This document shows positions 6,982-57,656 of a stretch of 64,000 nt of DNA, piece after piece; the stretch's first letter is position 1, and every line of letters begins with the position of its first letter. The notes beneath the pieces are model-generated. The model had not been told where the DNA came from, did not search any database, and saw nothing but the letters and a program-made list of their open reading frames with translations. Source of the stretch: Occultella glacieicola (GTDB lineage Bacteria; Actinomycetota; Actinomycetes; Actinomycetales; Beutenbergiaceae); assembly GCF_004353825.1 (NCBI RefSeq), contig NZ_SMNA01000001.1, positions 62,001 to 126,000 on the forward strand, in the 5' to 3' direction. Both the position numbers and the translations under genes were made by a program.

Positions 6982-8664
6982 TCACCACTCCCGATGGTCG
7001 GGGATCAGCGTGCCCGGGTTGAGGTTGCGGCCCGGGTCCGCCGCCCGGAGCAGGCCTACCATCAGGTCCGTGCCCGCCTCGGAGATGTCCCCCTCGAGCC
7101 ACGGCGCGTGGTCGGTGCCGACGCCGTGGTGGTGCGAGAGCGTCCCCCCGGCGTCGATGAACGACTGCTGGATTGCGGTCTTCACGACGTCGTACTGGCC
7201 GAGGAAGTCCGCGTCCGGGTTCGGGGGGAACGCGAACGTGAAGTAGAGGCAGGCGCCGGAATGGTAGGAGTGCGACAGGTGACACATGATGAACCCCGGC
7301 ACGCCGAGCTCGGTGAACTTCGCCCGAGCCGCCCGCACCGTCGTGGTGTAGACCTGACCGAGCTTCGACCACGGGGCCGCGGTCTCGGACACGTCGCCGA
7401 TCGCGCCGCGGTCGAGGAGGAAGTCGCGGATGTAGGGGGTGTCGAACTTCTTCTGGTCGTACATGGCGCCGGGACCGCGGCCGAGCCGGATGCCGCCGTG
7501 CTTGCCGATGACCTTGCCCACGATGGACTTCTCGGTGCGGACCTTGCCGGCGCCGCCCTCGTATCCGATGTAGGAGATGCAGACCTTCTCGAGGTCCCAA
7601 CCGCGCCGGCGCAGGACCTCGAACAGGCCCTCGCCGACCTTGCCGGAGATGCCTTTCGACGCCTTGCGGGTCGCGAGTGAGAACGCGGTCTCGTTCGCGT
7701 CGGAGACCCGGGTGATCGTGGGTGCCGCGTCGGAGGTGGAGATCTCCGCCATGGCCGCGAGGCCGGCGGCCCAGTTCGGGAACAGGTAGGCGATGACGTC
7801 GCGGTTCTCGGGGACCCGGTGCACGTTCACCCAGGCCTCGGTGATGACCCCGAGGCGGCCCTCGCTGCCGATGATCATCTCGCGCACGCTCGGTCCGGTG
7901 GATGTCGACGGCAGCGGCCGCAGTTCCACCACCTTTCCGGGCAGGACCACCCGTAGGCCCCGGGTGATGTCGGCGATGTCGCCGTACTTGTCGGACTGCA
8001 TGCCCGAGGACCGGGTCGCGATCCAGCCGCCGAGGGTGGAGTGCTTGAACGAGTCCGGCTGGTGTCCCATCGTCCAGCCCCGGGTGGTGAGCTGCTCCTC
8101 GATGTCCGGGCCGAGTCCGCCCGCCTGGATCCGGGCGAGCCCGGAGCTCTCGTCGATCTCGAGCACCCGGTTCATGCGGCCGAGGTCCAGGGAGATGATC
8201 GTGCGTTCCTCCCGTGGCTGGGGGGTCAGGCTGCCCGAGATGTTCGAGCCACCGCCGAACGGGATGAGCACGGCGTCCGCGGCGACGGTCGCGTCGACCA
8301 CGGCGCGCACCTCGTCCTCGTTCGCCGGGTAGACCACCGCGTCCGGCACCCGGGGCAGGTCCCCGGCCCGCACCCGAACCAGGTCGCGCATGCCCTTGCC
8401 GTAGGTGTGCACCACGCGCAGCATGTCGTCGGTGCTGACCTGGTGGTCGCCGACGGCGGCCCGCAACCGGGCGCCGAGGTCGTCACCGAGACGGCTGGCC
8501 GGGACGGCGATCTCGTCGAACGTCGGCGGCTCGCCGCCGGGCTGGGTCAGGTCGATGCCGACCTTGTCCAGGACGAAGCCGGCGAACGCCGGCTTGTCCT
8601 CGTGGTGGAAGGCGATGCCCTCCACGCCCCAGCCCCACCATTTCTGGTGTTCGACGTCGGTCAT
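6982..8664 (-). CDS. FAD-binding oxidase, alkyl-DHAP synthase-like
   Basis: A 560-residue vanillyl-alcohol-oxidase-fold flavoprotein. The PCMH FAD site IPFGGGSNISGS lies at residues 134-144. The segment around residues 201-231 (HQPDSFKHSTLGGWIATRSS, then GM and YGDI) and the C-terminal SHHHGVG (about 510-516) are hallmarks of alkylglycerone-phosphate synthase (AGPS). That enzyme swaps the acyl group of acyl-DHAP for a fatty alcohol to form the ether bond. A strong AGGAGG precedes ATG 8664, which overlaps the acyltransferase stop as ATGA. An upstream fatty acyl reductase in the same operon would supply the alcohol. Some bacterial relatives are annotated only as FAD-linked oxidases, so activity needs testing. 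Confidence 0.85.
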   Translation of the reverse strand: MTDVEHQKWWGWGVEGIAFHHEDKPAFAGFVLDKVGIDLTQPGGEPPTFDEIAVPASRLGDDLGARLRAAVGDHQVSTDDMLRVVHTYGKGMRDLVRVRAGDLPRVPDAVVYPANEDEVRAVVDATVAADAVLIPFGGGSNISGSLTPQPREERTIISLDLGRMNRVLEIDESSGLARIQAGGLGPDIEEQLTTRGWTMGHQPDSFKHSTLGGWIATRSSGMQSDKYGDIADITRGLRVVLPGKVVELRPLPSTSTGPSVREMIIGSEGRLGVITEAWVNVHRVPENRDVIAYLFPNWAAGLAAMAEISTSDAAPTITRVSDANETAFSLATRKASKGISGKVGEGLFEVLRRRGWDLEKVCISYIGYEGGAGKVRTEKSIVGKVIGKHGGIRLGRGPGAMYDQKKFDTPYIRDFLLDRGAIGDVSETAAPWSKLGQVYTTTVRAARAKFTELGVPGFIMCHLSHSYHSGACLYFTFAFPPNPDADFLGQYDVVKTAIQQSFIDAGGTLSHHHGVGTDHAPWLEGDISEAGTDLMVGLLRAADPGRNLNPGTLIPDHREW

Positions 8665-9413
8665 GAAACATCCTCCTGTGCCTGGCCGAGGTCGCTCTCG
8701 GGCCGGTTGTTGGCTCGATCGTCGTCGGTGACGAGGACGTACGAGGTCTGCATCGTGTGCATGGCACGCACGCGTGCGGTCAGGCGCGCGTTCAGGTCCG
8801 GCAGGCTCTCGCCGGCCCGCGCCCGCACGGGTTTGCCGACGATCACCTTGACCGGCATCCGGCCGGGCTTCGGCCACGCCGCGCCCACCGGCATCGCGTC
8901 GAACGCGCCGACCAGGGCCACCGGGATCAGCGGCACGTGCAGCGAGCGCGCGAGCGCGGCGGCGCCGGGCTTGAACGAGGCCATCTCCCCGGTCCGGGAC
9001 CGGGTGCCCTCCGGGAAGATCAGGAGCGGAACGCCCTGGCGGAGCAGGGACACCGACAGCCCGGCGCCCTTGCCGCGGTTGCTGCCTCGCTCGACGGGGT
9101 AGGAGTTGAAGAAGAACGAGGTGAGGGTGCTGCGCCACTTCTGCCGGTAGAAGTAGTCGGCGGCGGTCGCCGTGGCCAGGTTCTTCGTGACCCGGTACGG
9201 CAGCGCCGTGATGCACAGGGGCGCGTCGAGGTGACTGGAGTGGTTGGCCACGAGGATGAACGGTCCGTCGATCCCGGCCAGGTGCCGCTCGCCCTCGACC
9301 GTCACCCGGGTGTTCGCGAAGATCACCGGTCGAAGGATCAGCCGCTGAGCCACGTAGCGAAACCAGCGGTGCCACGCGCGGTGATACCGAGCGGTTCTGC
9401 GCTGTGCGCTCAT
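8661..9413 (-). CDS. 1-acyl-sn-glycerol-3-phosphate acyltransferase-like protein (PlsC family)
   Basis: A 250-residue lysophospholipid acyltransferase. Motif I is NHSSHLDAP with His58 and Asp63 (HX4D), and motif III is FPEGTRS at 133-139. It transfers an acyl chain to a (lyso)phosphatidate or DHAP-type acceptor at the membrane. In this operon it could make the acyl-DHAP used by the AGPS-like enzyme, or acylate 1-alkyl-glycerol-3-phosphate at sn-2. Both ends overlap neighbours by four bases (ATGA at 9410-9413 and 8661-8664), which points to stoichiometric translation. It is not obviously the housekeeping PlsC. Confidence 0.88.
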   Translation of the reverse strand: MSAQRRTARYHRAWHRWFRYVAQRLILRPVIFANTRVTVEGERHLAGIDGPFILVANHSSHLDAPLCITALPYRVTKNLATATAADYFYRQKWRSTLTSFFFNSYPVERGSNRGKGAGLSVSLLRQGVPLLIFPEGTRSRTGEMASFKPGAAALARSLHVPLIPVALVGAFDAMPVGAAWPKPGRMPVKVIVGKPVRARAGESLPDLNARLTARVRAMHTMQTSYVLVTDDDRANNRPESDLGQAQEDVS

Positions 9414-10207
9414 CGGCGTCCCTTCTTGATCAGGGCGGTGGCCCTGTTCACCAACGGTCGCGGCGCGTGTCGGGCACCCCAGGCGAGGAGCTTGAACCGC
9501 CGCGACGGGATCGACCTGGTCCGGCCCCGGTCCACATCGGCGAGGCAGTCGGCCACGAGTCGGTCCGCATCGAGCCACAGTACCGAGGGGATCGAGTTCG
9601 TGCGGATCGCGGCGCGCTCGTGGAACTCGGTGCGCACCCATCCCGGCAGCAGGGTCATCACCGTGACGCCGGTGCCGGCCAGTTCGATGCCGAGCCCCTC
9701 CGAGTAGGAGTTCACCCACGCCTTGATCGCCGAGTAGGAGCCCATCGGGATCAGGCCGGCCACCGAGGCGACGTTGATGATGAGGCCACTGCCCCGCTGC
9801 GTCATCGCCCGACCGGCGGCGCCGCCGAGCACGAGCACACCGCCCACCATGAGGTCGATCGCCTGCAGGTGGGGGCTGGGGTCCTCGCTGATCAGCGGCG
9901 TGTGCACGCCGTGGCCGGCGTTGTTGACGAGCACGGTCACCGGCACGTCCGTCCGGGTCAGCCGCGCCACGGCGAGGTCGACGCCGTCGGGCTCGGCGAG
10001 GTCCGCCGTCAGGGTCTCGACCGTGATCCCGAACTCGTGCCGCAGGTCCGCCGCGGTGGAGTCCAGCCGCTGGGCGTCGCGGGCCACGAGGACCAGGTCG
10101 AGCCCTCGGCCCGCGAGGCCCTTGGCGAACGCCAGGCCGATGCCGGACGTGCCACCGGTGACCATCGCGGTGCCGGTCAGCGGTGAGTTCTCGGCGGCGG
10201 ACGTCAT
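9410..10207 (-). CDS. Short-chain dehydrogenase/reductase in the lipid operon
   Basis: A 265-residue classical SDR. The cofactor motif TGGTSGIG is at 17-24, NNAG is near 95-98, and the catalytic Ser148, Tyr158 and Lys162 (YSAIK) are present. The closest family flavour is the long-chain DltE/YqjQ-type SDR. By context, a role as acyl- or alkyl-DHAP reductase, which makes the glycerol-phosphate ether, is attractive, but a ketoacyl or aldehyde substrate is equally compatible with the sequence. It is coupled through ATGA overlaps to the acyl-reductase fusion before it and the acyltransferase after it. Confidence 0.85.
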   Translation of the reverse strand: MTSAAENSPLTGTAMVTGGTSGIGLAFAKGLAGRGLDLVLVARDAQRLDSTAADLRHEFGITVETLTADLAEPDGVDLAVARLTRTDVPVTVLVNNAGHGVHTPLISEDPSPHLQAIDLMVGGVLVLGGAAGRAMTQRGSGLIINVASVAGLIPMGSYSAIKAWVNSYSEGLGIELAGTGVTVMTLLPGWVRTEFHERAAIRTNSIPSVLWLDADRLVADCLADVDRGRTRSIPSRRFKLLAWGARHAPRPLVNRATALIKKGRR

Positions 10208-12471
10208 CGTCGGCCCGATCCGGTGAGGCTGCGCAGAACCGGGGAGAACCGCCCCTCGGCGGTCGTCGTCCAGCTGTGCACCGGCCAGCGCTTCTCCTTG
10301 GCGTACCGGTACAGGGAGGAGTCGGGGTTGACCACGTTCGGGTGGCCGACCACCTCCAGCCAGGGACGGTCGGAGTAGGTGTCGCCGTAGGCGTAGGAGC
10401 CGGCGAGGTCGACGCCGGAGTCCCGGGCGTACCGGGTCAGCCAGGTGGCGCGGGCCTCGTCCACGAGCGGGGAGGTGGCCAGGTGCCCGGTCCAGCGGCC
10501 GTCGGAGTCCTTCTCCATCTCGCCGGCCACGATCACGTCGAACATGTCCGAGAGCGGCTCCACGAACACGTCGATCTGCCCGGTGACCAGGACGGTTCGG
10601 TGCCCTGCGGCGCGGTGTTCCGCGATCCGCTCGGTCGCTTCGGCGAGCACCCTGGCCCGCAGCGACGGGGTCACCTTCCGCGCGATGATGTCGCGCAGCG
10701 CGGCCTCATTGACCCCCTCGTACCGGCGCATGAAACTGCGGATGAAGTCGCCGCGGTCACGCCACTCGGCCTGCAGGTAGGTCCCGGAGTTGGCGACCAT
10801 GCCGCCGAGCTCACGCAGTGCCTGGCCCGAACCCTTCGCGGCGAGCTCGACCCACACGTAGTGCTCGATCAGGCTGGCCGCGGCCACGGTGCCGTGCAGG
10901 TCGAACACGGCGAGCACGTCGGTGCGCTGCGGGAGGGCACGCTTGGTGGCGCCACCGGAGGAACCACGCCGGCTACGGGACCGCATCAGGCCGGGGACCT
11001 TCGGGACGTGCACCTCCATCATGTAGTAGTCCCAGTCGATCGCCGTGACGTCGAAACCGTGGGACTCGCGCCGCTCCGGCGGCACGGTCTCGTGCAGCGC
11101 ACGGGTGTTCGCGTCGTCGAAGACGACCTCGGTCTGGGTGTACGGCTTGTAGAGGTCCGTGAACTTGCGCAGGGTGCCGAGGTCGCGCTTCGCCTTGAAG
11201 ACGGCGGAGATCCAGCCGCGGGTGCGGTCGTTCGCGGGCAGCCGGCCGACGGCCCGGTCGGCCAGGTCGACGGCGAGTTCCCGGCGGCGCAGGCTGCGCT
11301 CGACTGCGGGTCCGTTCGGGAACGTCCAGTTCGGCACCTGCACGGTGCTGCCCTCGTCGTCCAGGAGCGGGTGGGCGCTGAAGTACTCCCGGATCATCGA
11401 GACCATCCGCCCGAACCGCAGCGGGTTCCGGATGCCGGAGGCCACCTGGTAGTAGCGGGGCTCGCCGACGGCCGAGGGCGCGGCGGCCGCGGCGAGGATG
11501 GCGTTGACGACGTGGTCGACCGGGATCACGTCCAGGATCGTGTCCGCGAGCGCGGGGAACTCGGGCAGCATGCCGCGCCCGTAGGCCGCGATCAGGGGGT
11601 CGGCGACCTTGAACCCGTCGATCCAACCCGGGTAGGGGTGGCTGAGCGAGCTCTCGATGATCGTGGGCCGGACCACGGAGAGCCGGTGCTCGGCCCCCCA
11701 CAGCTCCTCGGCGACCCGTTCCCCGAGCGCCTTGGTGAAGGTGTAGACGTCCGGCCAGCCGAGGGACTGGGCGCGCGTGCGCCCGGCGTCCTGGAGCCGC
11801 TCGGTGACCCAGGCCTCGCGGGCCTCCTCGGCCGCCTGGGCGACGGCCTGGGCGCCCGCGCGGCGGTGCACGGACCGGGCCTTCTCGAGGAGCTTGCCGA
11901 GGACCTCCGGCCGTCGGGACGCGGCCTCGACCTCCGCCCGGGCGGCCAGGGCCCGGGTCATCTCCTCGGTGCGGTCCACCCCGTGGTCGAGGGATCGCTC
12001 CTCGGCGACCCCCTTGCGCAGCCCGGCGACGTAACAGGTGGAGACGTGCACCACGTGCGGGTCGGAGCCGGACTCCAGCAGCGCCGTGTACAGGGACACC
12101 GGGCCGCCGACGTTGTCACGGAACGCGTCGTCGATCGGCATGTCGAAGGACACGCTCGATGCGGAGTGGATGACGACGTCGATGTCGCCCGGCAGCGCCG
12201 GCACGTCGCCGAGGTCACCGGCCAGGACGGTGACCCGACCCGCGGCGGTCGCGACGCCGTCGTCCCCCACGCGCTCGCGCCACGCGGAGAACACGGGCTT
12301 CCTCAGCAACTTGTCCACGCGCATCTGCGCGGTCAGGGCGCCGCGCGGCCGGACCAGCAGGCTGATCCGGGTGGTGGGGTAGGTCGAGAGCAGCTTCTCC
12401 AGGACGGCCTGGCCGACGAAGCCGGTGGCGCCCGTGATGAGCACGTGGGCGTTGTTCAAAGGGTCGGACAC
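10204..12471 (-). CDS. Fatty acyl-CoA reductase fused to a HAD-IB domain
   Basis: A 755-residue fusion starting at GTG 12471. Residues 1-500 are a fatty acyl-CoA reductase: ITGATGFVG at 12-20, active site YTFTK (Tyr243, Lys247), and a FAR_C-like segment with KPYTQTEVVFDDANTRAL. Such enzymes reduce acyl-CoA or acyl-ACP to an aldehyde or alcohol with NADPH. Residues 520-755 are a HAD-IB domain, but motif I reads VFDLHGT: the nucleophile Asp524 is kept while the general acid/base Asp is His526 (codon CAC). The usual motif III lysine is also not evident (DEARATWL). GDTYSDRPWL keeps motif IV. The HAD part may therefore not be a normal phosphatase. It overlaps the SDR by ATGA. Confidence 0.87.
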   Translation of the reverse strand: MSDPLNNAHVLITGATGFVGQAVLEKLLSTYPTTRISLLVRPRGALTAQMRVDKLLRKPVFSAWRERVGDDGVATAAGRVTVLAGDLGDVPALPGDIDVVIHSASSVSFDMPIDDAFRDNVGGPVSLYTALLESGSDPHVVHVSTCYVAGLRKGVAEERSLDHGVDRTEEMTRALAARAEVEAASRRPEVLGKLLEKARSVHRRAGAQAVAQAAEEAREAWVTERLQDAGRTRAQSLGWPDVYTFTKALGERVAEELWGAEHRLSVVRPTIIESSLSHPYPGWIDGFKVADPLIAAYGRGMLPEFPALADTILDVIPVDHVVNAILAAAAAPSAVGEPRYYQVASGIRNPLRFGRMVSMIREYFSAHPLLDDEGSTVQVPNWTFPNGPAVERSLRRRELAVDLADRAVGRLPANDRTRGWISAVFKAKRDLGTLRKFTDLYKPYTQTEVVFDDANTRALHETVPPERRESHGFDVTAIDWDYYMMEVHVPKVPGLMRSRSRRGSSGGATKRALPQRTDVLAVFDLHGTVAAASLIEHYVWVELAAKGSGQALRELGGMVANSGTYLQAEWRDRGDFIRSFMRRYEGVNEAALRDIIARKVTPSLRARVLAEATERIAEHRAAGHRTVLVTGQIDVFVEPLSDMFDVIVAGEMEKDSDGRWTGHLATSPLVDEARATWLTRYARDSGVDLAGSYAYGDTYSDRPWLEVVGHPNVVNPDSSLYRYAKEKRWPVHSWTTTAEGRFSPVLRSLTGSGRR

Positions 12472-12491
12472 CCCGGTTACTGTACGCGGGG

Positions 12492-13295
12492 TCACCGGTG
12501 CCGTGCTCCCCGGGACGCGAAGCGTCCGAGGGCCTGCCGGATCGGGTGTGCGCCGGCCAGCCCCGGCAGTGCGGCGACCTGGCTGTCCGCGGCGTCGATG
12601 TCGGCGCGCACGGACGGGTCCGCGAACAGGTACCGCAGGACCGGTTGGACGTAGCCGGGGGCGCCGTAGCGGGAGCCGGGCCACCGCCAGGTCCGCACGG
12701 CGCGCCGCCCGAGACGGCCCGCGGCGGGGGAGGCGGCGAGCCGGTCGGAGGCCTCGTCGACGTAGAACTCCACGTGCCGGTCCTTGATCGCCACGATCGG
12801 GTCGATCACCGCGCCCAGGCGTGGCTCCAGCTGCCCGGCCCGCGCGTAGCTCGCGCGGGCCACCAGGCTGTCCAGGAGCCCGACGGCCATGTGTCCCGCC
12901 ACGATGTCGCTGCCGAGCAGGTTCGTGCGGATCGCGTCCGCGGTCGGGCTCACCCGGTCGTCCCAACTGCGACGCAACTCGCCCAGCTTCGTGCTGTGGG
13001 CCACCTCGGTGTGGTTGTTCTCGTCGAGCACGGCCTCGAGGGCGTCGGCGATCCAGTACTCCTCATAGGCCCAGGTGGTCAGGAAGGCGGTGACCCGGGA
13101 CTCGGCGTGCGTGGGGGTGACGAGCAGATCCCGCATCAGCCGCAGGGTGCCGCGTTCGACCTGTTGCAGGTGCCGCAGCGTGAGCAGGGTGTTCGTGCCG
13201 AGTCCCTGCAGGGCGGCCAGGTCGAGGTCCTTGCGGCGCAGCGACCGGGGGGTGCGGGTGTAGGAGCGCACGTCGAAGCCGGCGGAGTCGGACAT
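12492..13295 (-). CDS. Ferritin-like paralogue lacking most diiron ligands
   Basis: A 267-residue helical protein clearly paralogous to its upstream neighbour: both share a DLDL start, an RDxLVT--H segment and the same helix spacing. The metal ligands are largely lost. Glu47 and Glu79 remain, but the EExxH histidine is Ile82 (YEEYWI), the third-helix Glu is Ser143, and ExxH has become KDRH (Lys171). It is probably a non-catalytic partner subunit. ATG 13295 is taken as start. An in-frame GTG at 13367 overlaps the previous stop as GTGA and would add 24 residues, mostly Gly, Pro, Ser, Arg and Ala; coupling favours it, protein composition does not. Confidence 0.75.
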   Translation of the reverse strand: MSDSAGFDVRSYTRTPRSLRRKDLDLAALQGLGTNTLLTLRHLQQVERGTLRLMRDLLVTPTHAESRVTAFLTTWAYEEYWIADALEAVLDENNHTEVAHSTKLGELRRSWDDRVSPTADAIRTNLLGSDIVAGHMAVGLLDSLVARASYARAGQLEPRLGAVIDPIVAIKDRHVEFYVDEASDRLAASPAAGRLGRRAVRTWRWPGSRYGAPGYVQPVLRYLFADPSVRADIDAADSQVAALPGLAGAHPIRQALGRFASRGARHR

Positions 13296-13363
13296 GAACG
13301 GCATCCGGGCGCCGGCAGCACCCACCGGGCGACCGGGGCCGCCGGACCCGCGGGACGGCCCGC

Positions 13364-14158
13364 TCACGCCGCCACGCCGCGGGCGTCGAGGGCGTCGGCG
13401 AAGATGGTCAGGCCCTCCATGCCGGGCAGTCGGCCGATGTGACGGTCGATCGCGTTGATCTCCTTGCGACCCTCCGCGCCTCCGAACAGGTGACCCATCA
13501 CGTGGGTCACCTCGTCGTCGGTCATGATCCCCGAACCCACCGGTGCCCACGCGTTCTTCAGGGCGAACCGGGCGAGCTTCTGCGCCTTCGGGTTGCCGGC
13601 GAGCCGGGCCTTCGCCTGGGTCGCGTAGAACGCCACGTGCCGGGACTCCTGGGCGGCGATCCGCCGGAGCAGCTCGGCCAGGGACGGGTGCCCCTCGAGC
13701 ACACCGAGACGCTTGTAGGCGGCCGCCGCGGACCACTCGTTGGCGGCCCCCCAGAGCATGTGCACGGCCACGAAGTCCTTGCCGACGATGTTGCTGAGCA
13801 GGGACTGCTTCACCGGCGCGAGCCGGTCCCGCCAGCCGAGCTTGACCCGGCGGTCCTTGAGCTGGTCGTAGTTCACGGTCACCCCGTGCAGGGAGAGCAC
13901 GTGCGCGAGTGCCTCCCCGTGCCAGAACTCCTCGCGGTTCCACATGGTCATGAAGGCGTTCACCTCGCCCTCCCCGTGGGAGCGGGTGACCAGCATGTCC
14001 CGCAGGTAGCACACGGTGTGGTACTCGACGTCGCACATGTACCGCAACGTCCGGATCGACTCCGGCGGCAGCGGGTTCTCGCGGAAGTTGTCGAGGTCGA
14101 GGTCCTCCCAGTTGACCCGCACGGAGTCCTGGGTGAACTTGTCGATATCAAAAGCCAT
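13364..14158 (-). CDS. Diiron ferritin-like protein, desaturase/oxygenase-like
   Basis: A 264-residue helical protein with a complete carboxylate-bridged diiron set: Glu45 (VEYHT), Glu77 and His80 (REEFWH), Glu141 (NEW), and Glu171 and His174 (ESRH). This E, ExxH, E, ExxH spacing matches acyl-ACP desaturases and related oxygen-activating ferritin-like enzymes. No membrane segment is seen. As the first gene of the ether-lipid operon it could desaturate or hydroxylate an acyl or alkyl chain; formation of a plasmalogen vinyl ether is an attractive but untested idea. AAGGG precedes ATG 14158. A palindromic operator lies 71 bp upstream. Confidence 0.8.
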   Translation of the reverse strand: MAFDIDKFTQDSVRVNWEDLDLDNFRENPLPPESIRTLRYMCDVEYHTVCYLRDMLVTRSHGEGEVNAFMTMWNREEFWHGEALAHVLSLHGVTVNYDQLKDRRVKLGWRDRLAPVKQSLLSNIVGKDFVAVHMLWGAANEWSAAAAYKRLGVLEGHPSLAELLRRIAAQESRHVAFYATQAKARLAGNPKAQKLARFALKNAWAPVGSGIMTDDEVTHVMGHLFGGAEGRKEINAIDRHIGRLPGMEGLTIFADALDARGVAA

Positions 14159-14228
14159 CAGGGTGTGCCCTTCACTCCCGGTGCTGCACGTGACGGTCAG
14201 CCAGGCGCCGTAGGCCCGGGGCGGGTGA

Positions 14229-14249
14229 ACGCTACACGGACTGTAGCGT
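14229..14249. promoter_or_regulatory. Palindromic operator of the ether-lipid operon
   Basis: A perfect inverted repeat, ACGCTACA and TGTAGCGT separated by CGGAC, lies in the 134-bp gap between the TetR gene and the diiron gene. TACA/TGTA half-sites are typical of TetR/AcrR operators. On the minus strand the sequence TACAGT within it could serve as a -10 element, so binding would block transcription. Confidence 0.6.
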
Positions 14250-14292
14250 CTTGCGGTCCGAGCCTACGACCTCGACGGGAGTTCGTGCCACA

Positions 14293-14862
14293 TCAGTCTT
14301 CGGATGGGTCCGACGTCGCCTGCAGGGAGATCCGGAGGGTGGCCACGACGGAGTCCGTCCAGCCCGCCGGGAACGTTCCGGAGTGGGCGAACCGAGCCGC
14401 GACGGCGCCGAGGAGCAGGTCGACGGCGACCTCGATGTCCGCGTCCGGGCGGACCTGCCCGGTGGCGACCCCGTCACGCAGCCGCGCGACCGCGAGCGCG
14501 ATCCGCGGCCGCAGCAGTTTGTCCCGGATGAGTTCCACCTGGTTCTGGTCCTCGCTCTGCACCAGGCCGAGGAACACGCCCGAGCCCGGGCCACCCTCCA
14601 GGGTCGCGATCAGGGACTCCACGGCGGCGCGCATGTCCCTCCAGACGTCATCGCCGGGTTCGAGCACGCGGGAGGCCATGTGGTCGCCGAGCGCTGCGGC
14701 GAGCACCGCGTCGCGGTCCTTGTGACGCCGGTAGATGGTGGTCCTGGCCACGCCGGACTCGGCCGCGACCGCCTCGACGGTCACGGCCAGGGGACCGTGG
14801 GTCCGCAGCAGGTTCATCGCCGCCGCGTAGATGCGACGGTCGACCTCCTCGCGGCGCGACAT
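14293..14862 (-). CDS. TetR/AcrR family regulator of the ether-lipid operon
   Basis: A 189-residue TetR-type repressor. The N-terminal HTH is recognisable (TVEAVAAESGVARTTIYRRH, residues 27-46) and the C-terminal part is an all-helical ligand domain resembling TetR_C. It lies directly upstream of, and on the same strand as, the six-gene lipid operon, with a perfect 8-bp-arm palindrome in the gap. The likely role is a repressor released by a fatty acyl or alcohol ligand; this is inferred from position, not shown. HPr ends only 5 bases before its ATG, so it may share the HPr transcript. Confidence 0.87.
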   Translation of the reverse strand: MSRREEVDRRIYAAAMNLLRTHGPLAVTVEAVAAESGVARTTIYRRHKDRDAVLAAALGDHMASRVLEPGDDVWRDMRAAVESLIATLEGGPGSGVFLGLVQSEDQNQVELIRDKLLRPRIALAVARLRDGVATGQVRPDADIEVAVDLLLGAVAARFAHSGTFPAGWTDSVVATLRISLQATSDPSED

Positions 14863-57236: not shown

Positions 57237-57333
57237 CCCTCGAGGGTGCCACGCGGATCCGAGTCAGGTCCAGAGGCAGGTCCAGAGGCTCAGCGCGGCA
57301 TTTCCGGAAGCGGGGACCGTTGCGGTACCTGGG

Positions 57334-57406
57334 TGGAGCCAGCGGGACTCGAACCCGCAACCCCCTGCTTGCAAAGCAGGTGCGCTACCAATTGCGCCAT
57401 GGCCCC
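57334..57406 (-). tRNA. tRNA-Ala (anticodon TGC)
   Basis: The minus strand gives a 73-base tRNA: acceptor GGGGCCA pairs with TGGCTCC, the D-loop is AATTGGTAGC, the anticodon loop is CTTTGCAAG and the T-arm is GCGGGTTCGAGTCCCGC. CCA is not encoded (ACCC follows). It pairs with tRNA-Ile at 57583 as the usual gyrase-side tRNA pair of actinomycetes. Confidence 0.95.
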
Positions 57407-57433
57407 GTGTGAAGTTGTCCGGGCCGGATCGGC

Positions 57434-57553
57434 TCAGGGCAGCGGGTCGGTGACCTCGGCCCACAGATCCCGCTCGGTGCGGTCCGCGGCGAACTTCCGC
57501 CAGAGGACGTAGCCGGCGACGGCCACTGCCGCGACCGTGAGGAACTTCTTCAT
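57434..57553 (-). CDS. DLW-39 family small protein
   Basis: A 39-codon gene between tRNA-Ala and tRNA-Ile. The protein starts MKKFLTVAAVAVAGYVLWRK, one short hydrophobic helix, and ends RDLWAEVTDPLP. The length of exactly 39 residues and the C-terminal DLW motif define the DLW-39 family, known from this position downstream of gyrA in actinomycetes. Function is unknown. GGAAGGTGG lies upstream of ATG 57553. Confidence 0.88.
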   Translation of the reverse strand: MKKFLTVAAVAVAGYVLWRKFAADRTERDLWAEVTDPLP

Positions 57554-57582
57554 GACCTGCCACCTTCCAGATCCGCCGAACG

Positions 57583-57656
57583 TGGGCCTAGCTGGACTCG
57601 AACCAGCGACCTCTTCCTTATCAGGGAAGCGCTCTAACCGACTGAGCTATAGGCCC
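57583..57656 (-). tRNA. tRNA-Ile (anticodon GAT)
   Basis: A 74-base tRNA on the minus strand: acceptor GGGCCTA pairs with TAGGCCC, the anticodon loop is CTGATAA and the T-arm is GCTGGTTCGAGTCCAGC. It lies 75 bp downstream of the DUF3566 stop. Confidence 0.95.

Follow-up and report, generated by a model that had tools for sequence, protein, structure and literature searches.

A candidate oxygen-dependent ether-lipid operon with a ferritin-like diiron protein in Occultella glacieicola and its actinobacterial relatives

Which genes could allow an aerobic actinobacterium to make plasmalogen-type ether lipids? The question is raised by a gene cluster on the minus strand of a 64,000-nucleotide stretch of the Occultella glacieicola genome (contig NZ_SMNA01000001.1, positions 62,001 to 126,000; hereafter the window). 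The cluster, at 6982-14862, comprises a gene for a TetR-family regulator followed by six genes in the order FERA, FERB, FAR-HAD, SDR, PlsC-like and AGPS. These encode two ferritin-like proteins, a fatty acyl-CoA reductase fused to a HAD-IB domain, a short-chain dehydrogenase/reductase, an acyltransferase and a homologue of alkyl-dihydroxyacetone phosphate (DHAP) synthase. A first-pass annotation had read the six genes as a complete alkyl-ether route in which the ferritin-like pair adds the vinyl-ether double bond. We consider it rather probable that the operon specifies an O2-dependent plasmalogen-type ether-lipid pathway of the animal and myxobacterial kind with a different last enzyme, FERA or FERA/FERB standing in for CarF/PEDS1. 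The sequences make it highly probable that an alkyl-ether route is encoded, and we give FERA (or FERA/FERB) an even or slightly better chance of being the vinyl-ether desaturase.

The alkyl-ether route centers on AGPS (6982..8664). Its FAD_binding_4 and FAD-oxidase_C domains both score above the Pfam cut-offs, and its top phmmer matches in the PDB are AGPS enzymes (2uuu, E 1.6e-113, 384 bits; 4bby, E 3.1e-87, 297 bits). The next kind of FAD enzyme follows at E 4e-22 (82 bits). With AGPS enzymes so far ahead in this ranking, we ruled out that the window protein is a mere glycolate or lactate oxidase. Residues R319, R413, Y474 and H511-513 are conserved at at least 97% among 61 sequences and align with R419, R515, Y578 and H615-617 of guinea-pig AGPS, which we take to have catalytic roles. 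The window protein is, by homology, an unambiguous relative of alkyl-DHAP synthases, and its predicted activity is the exchange of an acyl for an alkyl chain on DHAP.

The remaining enzymes of this route are encoded immediately upstream. FAR-HAD (10204..12495) contains NAD_binding_4, Sterile and HAD domains (Pfam) and matches a fatty acyl-CoA reductase in the PDB (7eoz, E 2.5e-54), and the tyrosine and lysine of its YTFTK motif are present in 66 of 66 sequences. Its C-terminal domain lacks the DxD nucleophile/acid pair of HAD phosphatases. The first aspartate is invariant (66/66), the second position is glutamate (60/66) or histidine (6/66), and this domain may therefore not be an ordinary phosphatase. 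SDR (9410..10207) has an adh_short domain in which N95-N96, Y158 and K162 are nearly invariant (66 sequences); its best NCBIfam model, a mycolate reductase, scores 153 bits, far below the cut-off of 380. The PlsC-like acyltransferase (8661..9413; PF01553) keeps N57, H58, D63 and F133-P134-E135-G136 at at least 97% (65 sequences). To judge from the neighboring genes, SDR would reduce alkyl- or acyl-DHAP and the acyltransferase would act on DHAP or alkyl-glycerol-3-phosphate (alkyl-G3P).

FERA (13364..14158) is the candidate for the last step. Its ligand positions E45, E76, E77, H80, E141, E171 and H174 are occupied in all 38 sequences and follow the E, ExxH, E, ExxH order of soluble acyl-acyl carrier protein (acyl-ACP) desaturases. 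The catalytic motifs picked out for each enzyme in the first pass hold across relatives. The AlphaFold2 models of FERA and FERB are helical (predicted local distance difference test scores 88.8 and 87.0). In Foldseek searches with the FERA model, plant acyl-ACP desaturases lead (7t63, E 4.3e-4, TM 0.65) and R2-like oxidases come behind. FERA is predicted to be a diiron protein closest to acyl-ACP desaturases.

FERB (12492..13304) has the same fold and is 35% identical to FERA. In Foldseek searches with its model, R2-like oxidases lead, none below E 0.001. The window protein retains E45, E76, E77 and H174 and has I80, S141 and K171 in place of H80, E141 and E171. Among 20 FERB sequences, E45 is present in 18, E76 in all 20 and H174 in 19, H80 is always replaced, E171 is never found (lysine or arginine in 18) and position 77 is lysine in 14. 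These ligand losses agree with its description as a degenerate paralogue.

We then asked how often the genes are kept together. A scan of a genome collection found 216 FERA relatives, and 80 loci were kept, with gene content judged within the locus stretches examined; the 80 include no Frigoribacterium, Frondihabitans or Kineococcus. All six genes are present in 63 of these loci, which encode FAR, the acyltransferase, AGPS and the SDR reductase of the pathway together, and a set that recurs this often is a grouping beyond chance. The neighborhood association of AGPS-like and ferritin-like genes, put forward as a check in the first pass, was found. FERA and FERB alone are present in five loci and FERA alone in nine; in three of the latter (L053, L079 and L097; labels in L, G and g are ours for loci, genomes and genera), FERA lies at most 1.7 kb from the contig start. 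L036, L047 and L059 lack part of the set at a contig end. For 11 of the 14 genomes without AGPS at the locus, an AGPS of at least 60% identity is encoded elsewhere in the genome. FERA and AGPS are on opposite strands in 59 of the 64 loci with FERA, FAR and AGPS matches and on the same strand in five, all Ruaniaceae. Because the relative strand differs between loci, the genes appear to have kept company through rearrangement. A search of a plasmid collection for named carriers returned one record, a linear plasmid of Streptomyces sp. NBC_01450 (L160; 2.35 Mb) that carries all six genes and is typed as mobilizable, which suggests horizontal transfer of the cluster. Separately, the contig of L047 is labeled 'Corynebacterium-like bacterium B27'; on the tree, the FERA of this contig has a zero-length end branch within the Herbiconiux group, so either the label is possibly mistaken or the contig may come from another organism.

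Co-occurrence was also assessed across whole genomes, with kinship considered to genus level at most. In the family of Subtercola vilae, read as Microbacteriaceae, 65 of 219 genomes have FERA, 59 AGPS and 58 FAR; all three are found in 55 and one or two in 12. Four of 69 FERA matches were left out of this test (three weak, one to FERB only), and G094 and G490 were counted as lacking AGPS although AGPS is in two pieces at L092 and the contig of L059 ends at that point. FERA and FERB are both present in 12 of 12 Subtercola genomes. In a sample of 296 genomes of the class (identity thresholds of at least 58% for FERA, 52% for FAR and 50% for AGPS), 23 have both FERA and FAR, two have FERA only and one has FAR only. 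The corresponding counts for FERA and AGPS are 21 together, four with FERA and without AGPS and 14 with AGPS and without FERA. Counted by genus (115 genera), seven have FERA and FAR, none FERA only and one FAR only. Thirteen of 38 FERA matches in this sample were weaker and were left out; ten were tested separately against weaker FAR matches, and seven of the ten paired.

Lipid data from carriers bear on the product. Dimethylacetals (DMAs) form from vinyl ethers on acid methanolysis. The fatty acid data tabulated in PMC5945732 give iso-16:0 DMA and anteiso-15:0 DMA, respectively, at 17.0% and 3.2% in S. vilae DB165, 13.3% and 10.3% in S. frigoramans, 11.9% and 11.0% in S. boreus and 6.9% and 9.7% in S. 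lobariae. DMAs total ~21-29% of peaks in these four species, and the same source lists DMAs for all Subtercola species and none for Frondihabitans. We found the six genes in S. vilae DB165, the analyzed strain itself (L064), in S. lobariae (L057), in Agreia bicolorata (L106) and in three S. boreus strains (L069, L070, L098) other than the one analyzed for lipids. Similar compounds are described in other genera. The aerobic Kineococcus rubinsiae has 2.9% anteiso-15:0 DMA, which the MIDI system called 14:0 2-OH and gas chromatography-mass spectrometry (GC-MS) corrected; in the account of its authors, a DMA was at first sight surprising (PMC7472656). Frigoribacterium strain D8 and F. faeni are listed with 14:0 2-OH and anteiso-15:0 aldehyde/DMA, and two other species of the genus are not (PMC12823222). 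A term search of the main text of the S. vilae genome paper (PMC6518244) returned no DMA, plasmalogen, ether or desaturase.

Gene content, the families to which AGPS and FAR belong, the conservation of the ligand positions and co-retention are all read from sequence. Each reaction of the following scheme is what we infer, and so are what FERA acts on, what FERB contributes and how the operon is regulated. FAR would make a (branched) fatty alcohol, and the PlsC-like enzyme would acylate DHAP or, later, the sn-2 position. AGPS would form alkyl-DHAP by replacing the acyl chain with the alcohol, and SDR would reduce this product to alkyl-G3P. FERA, as a soluble diiron enzyme, would use O2 to make the 1'-2' vinyl-ether double bond. 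FERB, in genomes that have it, would be a partner without catalytic activity, and TetR would control the operon via a CGCTACA-N5-TGTAGCG site. The chances seem to us evenly balanced that FERA, alone or together with FERB, represents another aerobic delta-1' desaturase besides the known one, unrelated to CarF/PEDS1, and the source of DMAs in aerobic actinobacteria.

The distribution of the genes indicates two modules. FAR, SDR, PlsC and AGPS remain grouped even at L143, L146 and L157, where FERA lies elsewhere or is missing, and this, with the clear homology of AGPS, supports well the complete alkyl-ether route proposed in the first pass. L143, from genus g74, has a FAR-SDR-PlsC-AGPS operon with no FERA within the 20 kb read. 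The FERA, FAR and AGPS matches of g74 all fall in the same 12 genomes, six of which match named Jiangella genomes by identical coordinates, and six named Jiangella loci have FERA without the other cluster genes in the locus stretches examined. G114 and G484 have FAR, SDR, PlsC and AGPS together and no FERA match; G301 has SDR, PlsC and AGPS together, a FAR of 45% identity elsewhere and no FERA match. Since each occurs without the other, the alkyl-ether module and the FERA module can be parted, which suits FERA as an optional finishing enzyme.

Several loci show variations on this layout. L157 (G484) shares the flanking gene c5 with L150-L152 and has FAR-SDR-PlsC-AGPS but not FERB-FERA, which suggests that the ferritin-like pair was lost naturally there. 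In genus g72 (G132, G252 and ten more genomes), AGPS has ~60% identity, and at the loci read (L144, L149), it lies apart from SDR, PlsC, FAR and FERA. Eight Subtercola loci (L055, L057, L064, L068, L069, L070, L072, L098) carry two additional genes between FAR and FERA, one LarA-like (PF09861 in L069) and the other a further PlsC-like gene; FERA is followed in these loci by a gene resembling diacylglycerol kinase. L139 (G182) and L158/L140 (G254, Haloactinopolyspora) have FAR, a LarA-like gene and PlsC without AGPS or SDR nearby; this LarA-like gene is 47% identical to the Subtercola one, and FERA is directly next in L139 and at the start of another contig in L140.

A number of observations weigh against FERA/FERB as a vinyl-ether desaturase. 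FERA without a close AGPS amounts to three changes on the FERA tree and speaks for another substrate in those lineages. The Agromyces-like group (seven rows, next to Agreia on the tree) has FERA without a close AGPS, and no FAR was found in the six Agromyces-like FERA genomes searched. Haloactinopolyspora, inside Jiangella on the tree (two genomes in three rows, L097 and L140 being one genome), has kept FERA, PlsC, the LarA-like gene and FAR and has no close AGPS. In Tamaricihabitans, the best AGPS-like match is only 33%. In the class sample, the distribution of FERA agrees better with that of FAR than with that of AGPS, and FERA may therefore act before AGPS. In each of the 12 g74 (Jiangella) genomes, FERA is matched once and FERB not at all, so the two proteins need not act as a pair. 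The fold match of FERA is modest (TM 0.65, E 4e-4), and the window protein scores 19.5, just below the Pfam FA_desaturase_2 cut-off of 22.7, which the Phytoactinopolyspora orthologue (L038) exceeds at 24.5. That the CarF-type domain PF10520 was matched in none of the 33 FERA-bearing genomes and none of the 296 genomes of the class sample counts in favor of FERA, but this search had no positive control. On the lipid side, DMAs can also come from free aldehydes, such as those made by FAR. Agreia has a complete cluster and a listed DMA content of at most 4%, and the 10.3% 14:0 2-OH listed for S. lobariae is a genuine hydroxy acid or else a DMA under the wrong name (both PMC5945732). In the lipid data given for Lacisediminihabitans profunda, DMAs are absent and 14:0 2-OH is present in traces only (PMC7033078); its congener L. 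changchengi, a different species, carries the cluster (L062). Our literature search for Occultella or Ruania lipids found no usable paper. The proposed role for the ferritin-like pair thus stands in part: co-retention, the acyl-ACP-desaturase-like fold and the DMAs listed for carriers favor it, and the three lineages with FERA and no close AGPS, together with Jiangella without a FERB match, count against a desaturase that always works as a pair on the AGPS product.

The same observations can be read in other ways. The operon could make saturated alkyl ethers while FERA/FERB acts on something else, for example by desaturating or hydroxylating a CoA- or ACP-bound acyl or alkyl chain before AGPS, with DMAs coming from another enzyme or from free aldehydes. 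The acyl-ACP desaturases among FERA's nearest folds, its closer tracking of FAR, its persistence without AGPS in three lineages, its company of FAR, PlsC and a LarA-like gene in Haloactinopolyspora and the 14:0 2-OH peak of S. lobariae all fit. We nevertheless consider this unlikely, since the chains tabulated for the four Subtercola species in PMC5945732 are saturated save for trace a-15:1 in S. boreus, the K. rubinsiae '14:0 2-OH' peak proved by GC-MS to be anteiso-15:0 DMA, and known plasmalogen enzymes are matched in none of the 33 FERA-bearing genomes (with no positive control for CarF).

It is also conceivable, though quite improbable, that FERA/FERB breaks or senses ether lipids, as an alkyl-ether monooxygenase or in lipid-ageing control, and that the operon balances making and removal. 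R2-like oxidases share the FERA fold, but the DMA content listed for the four Subtercola species disfavors a cleaving enzyme; the AGPS module without FERA in G114 and G484 is compatible with either reading. In cyanobacteria, acyl-ACP reductase and aldehyde-deformylating oxygenase form an aldehyde/hydrocarbon route. FAR and FERA, an adjacent reductase and ferritin-like diiron enzyme that also occur without AGPS in Haloactinopolyspora, might do the same beside a second linked AGPS pathway. This seems very improbable to us: no aldehyde-deformylating oxygenase is among the best 50 fold matches of FERA, FAR finds a fatty acyl-CoA reductase as its match and includes a Sterile domain, and ATGA overlaps join FAR, SDR, PlsC and AGPS.

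The TetR gene (14293..14862; Pfam TetR_N and TetR_C_11, both above cut-off) is separated from FERA by 134 bases. This gap contains a perfect inverted repeat, ACGCTACA-GTCCG-TGTAGCGT (N5 spacer), at 14229..14249, which is likely a TetR operator. The window has a single copy of the core CTACA-N5-TGTAG; among the 80 loci, this core is found only in L031-L036 and L075, always upstream of FERA. At L075 (Tamaricihabitans), a TetR of 47% identity is encoded beside FERA. This recurrence, with TetR beside FERA at L075, indicates TetR control of FERA.

All six genes lie on the minus strand downstream of TetR as first described, and the four-base ATGA overlaps noted at three joints are exact (FAR/SDR 10204-10207, SDR/PlsC 9410-9413, PlsC/AGPS 8661-8664). 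FERB and FAR may share a GTGA overlap at 12492-12495; the FAR start is GTG at 12495 or 12471. An alternative GTG start of FERB at 13367 is possible and would overlap the FERA stop. In two Occultella loci, the homologous part of FERB starts ~115 bases past FERA, which makes ATG 13304 or 13295 the likelier start. The closest named relatives of the window FERA are in Occultella, and the next in Ruania. Elsewhere in the window, on the minus strand at 57332-57656, tRNA-Ala(tgc) adjoins tRNA-Ile(gat).

According to a review, plasmalogens make the myxobacteria an exception among aerobic bacteria (PMC9131029); DMAs are nonetheless in print for Subtercola, some Frigoribacterium and K. rubinsiae. Our literature search found no paper naming the enzymes behind the DMAs of these actinobacteria, no report tying a ferritin-like enzyme to plasmalogens and none of an AGPS cluster in actinobacteria. 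The cluster offers a gene set for the DMAs of aerobic actinobacteria and may explain plasmalogen-like traces. If FERA is the desaturase, PlsA, CarF/PEDS1 and FERA would be three separate kinds of enzyme that form the vinyl-ether bond, and purification should be less difficult for a soluble enzyme than for a membrane-bound one. The natural losses, of FERA beside an AGPS module and of AGPS beside FERA, make the idea testable by lipid analysis.

Known systems place the operon in context. The anaerobic plasmalogen synthase PlsA/PlsR would give the same vinyl-ether product. DUF2229 (PF09989), which we take to be a domain of PlsA, was matched in 0 of 33 FERA-bearing genomes and 4 of 14 controls, and on this basis we set aside PlsA-type synthesis in the carriers. 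PlsA/PlsR converts diacyl lipids, according to PMC9702350. FERA shares the helical diiron fold and the E/ExxH/E/ExxH order of soluble acyl-ACP desaturases (stearoyl-ACP desaturase, DesA2; PF03405); it differs from them in its ~18% identity, its degenerate paralogue and its ether-lipid gene context. Soluble methane monooxygenase has active and inactive subunits, and the anatomy of FERA/FERB resembles this arrangement. As reviewed in PMC9131029, CarF is found in very few bacteria, mainly myxobacteria and a few Leptospira and Alphaproteobacteria. Myxococcus xanthus offers a likeness: according to the same review, its operon MXAN_1676-1674 encodes AGPS, an NAD-dependent reductase and a FAR that has an acyltransferase domain, and its elbA-E operon includes a HAD protein, ElbB. 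The M. xanthus desaturase is the His-rich membrane protein CarF, whereas the operon here has FERA/FERB and no CarF match (again with no positive control). The mammalian pathway uses FAR1, GNPAT, AGPS, AGNPR/PexRAP and PEDS1 (PMC9131029). The operon differs from it in its soluble ferritin-like protein, in having no match to CarF/PEDS1 (subject to the same control) and in the fusion of FAR to HAD. It resembles that pathway in combining, within one operon, the enzyme classes for fatty alcohol formation, acyl transfer, alkyl-DHAP synthesis and reduction, and its last step would likewise need O2 if FERA is the desaturase.

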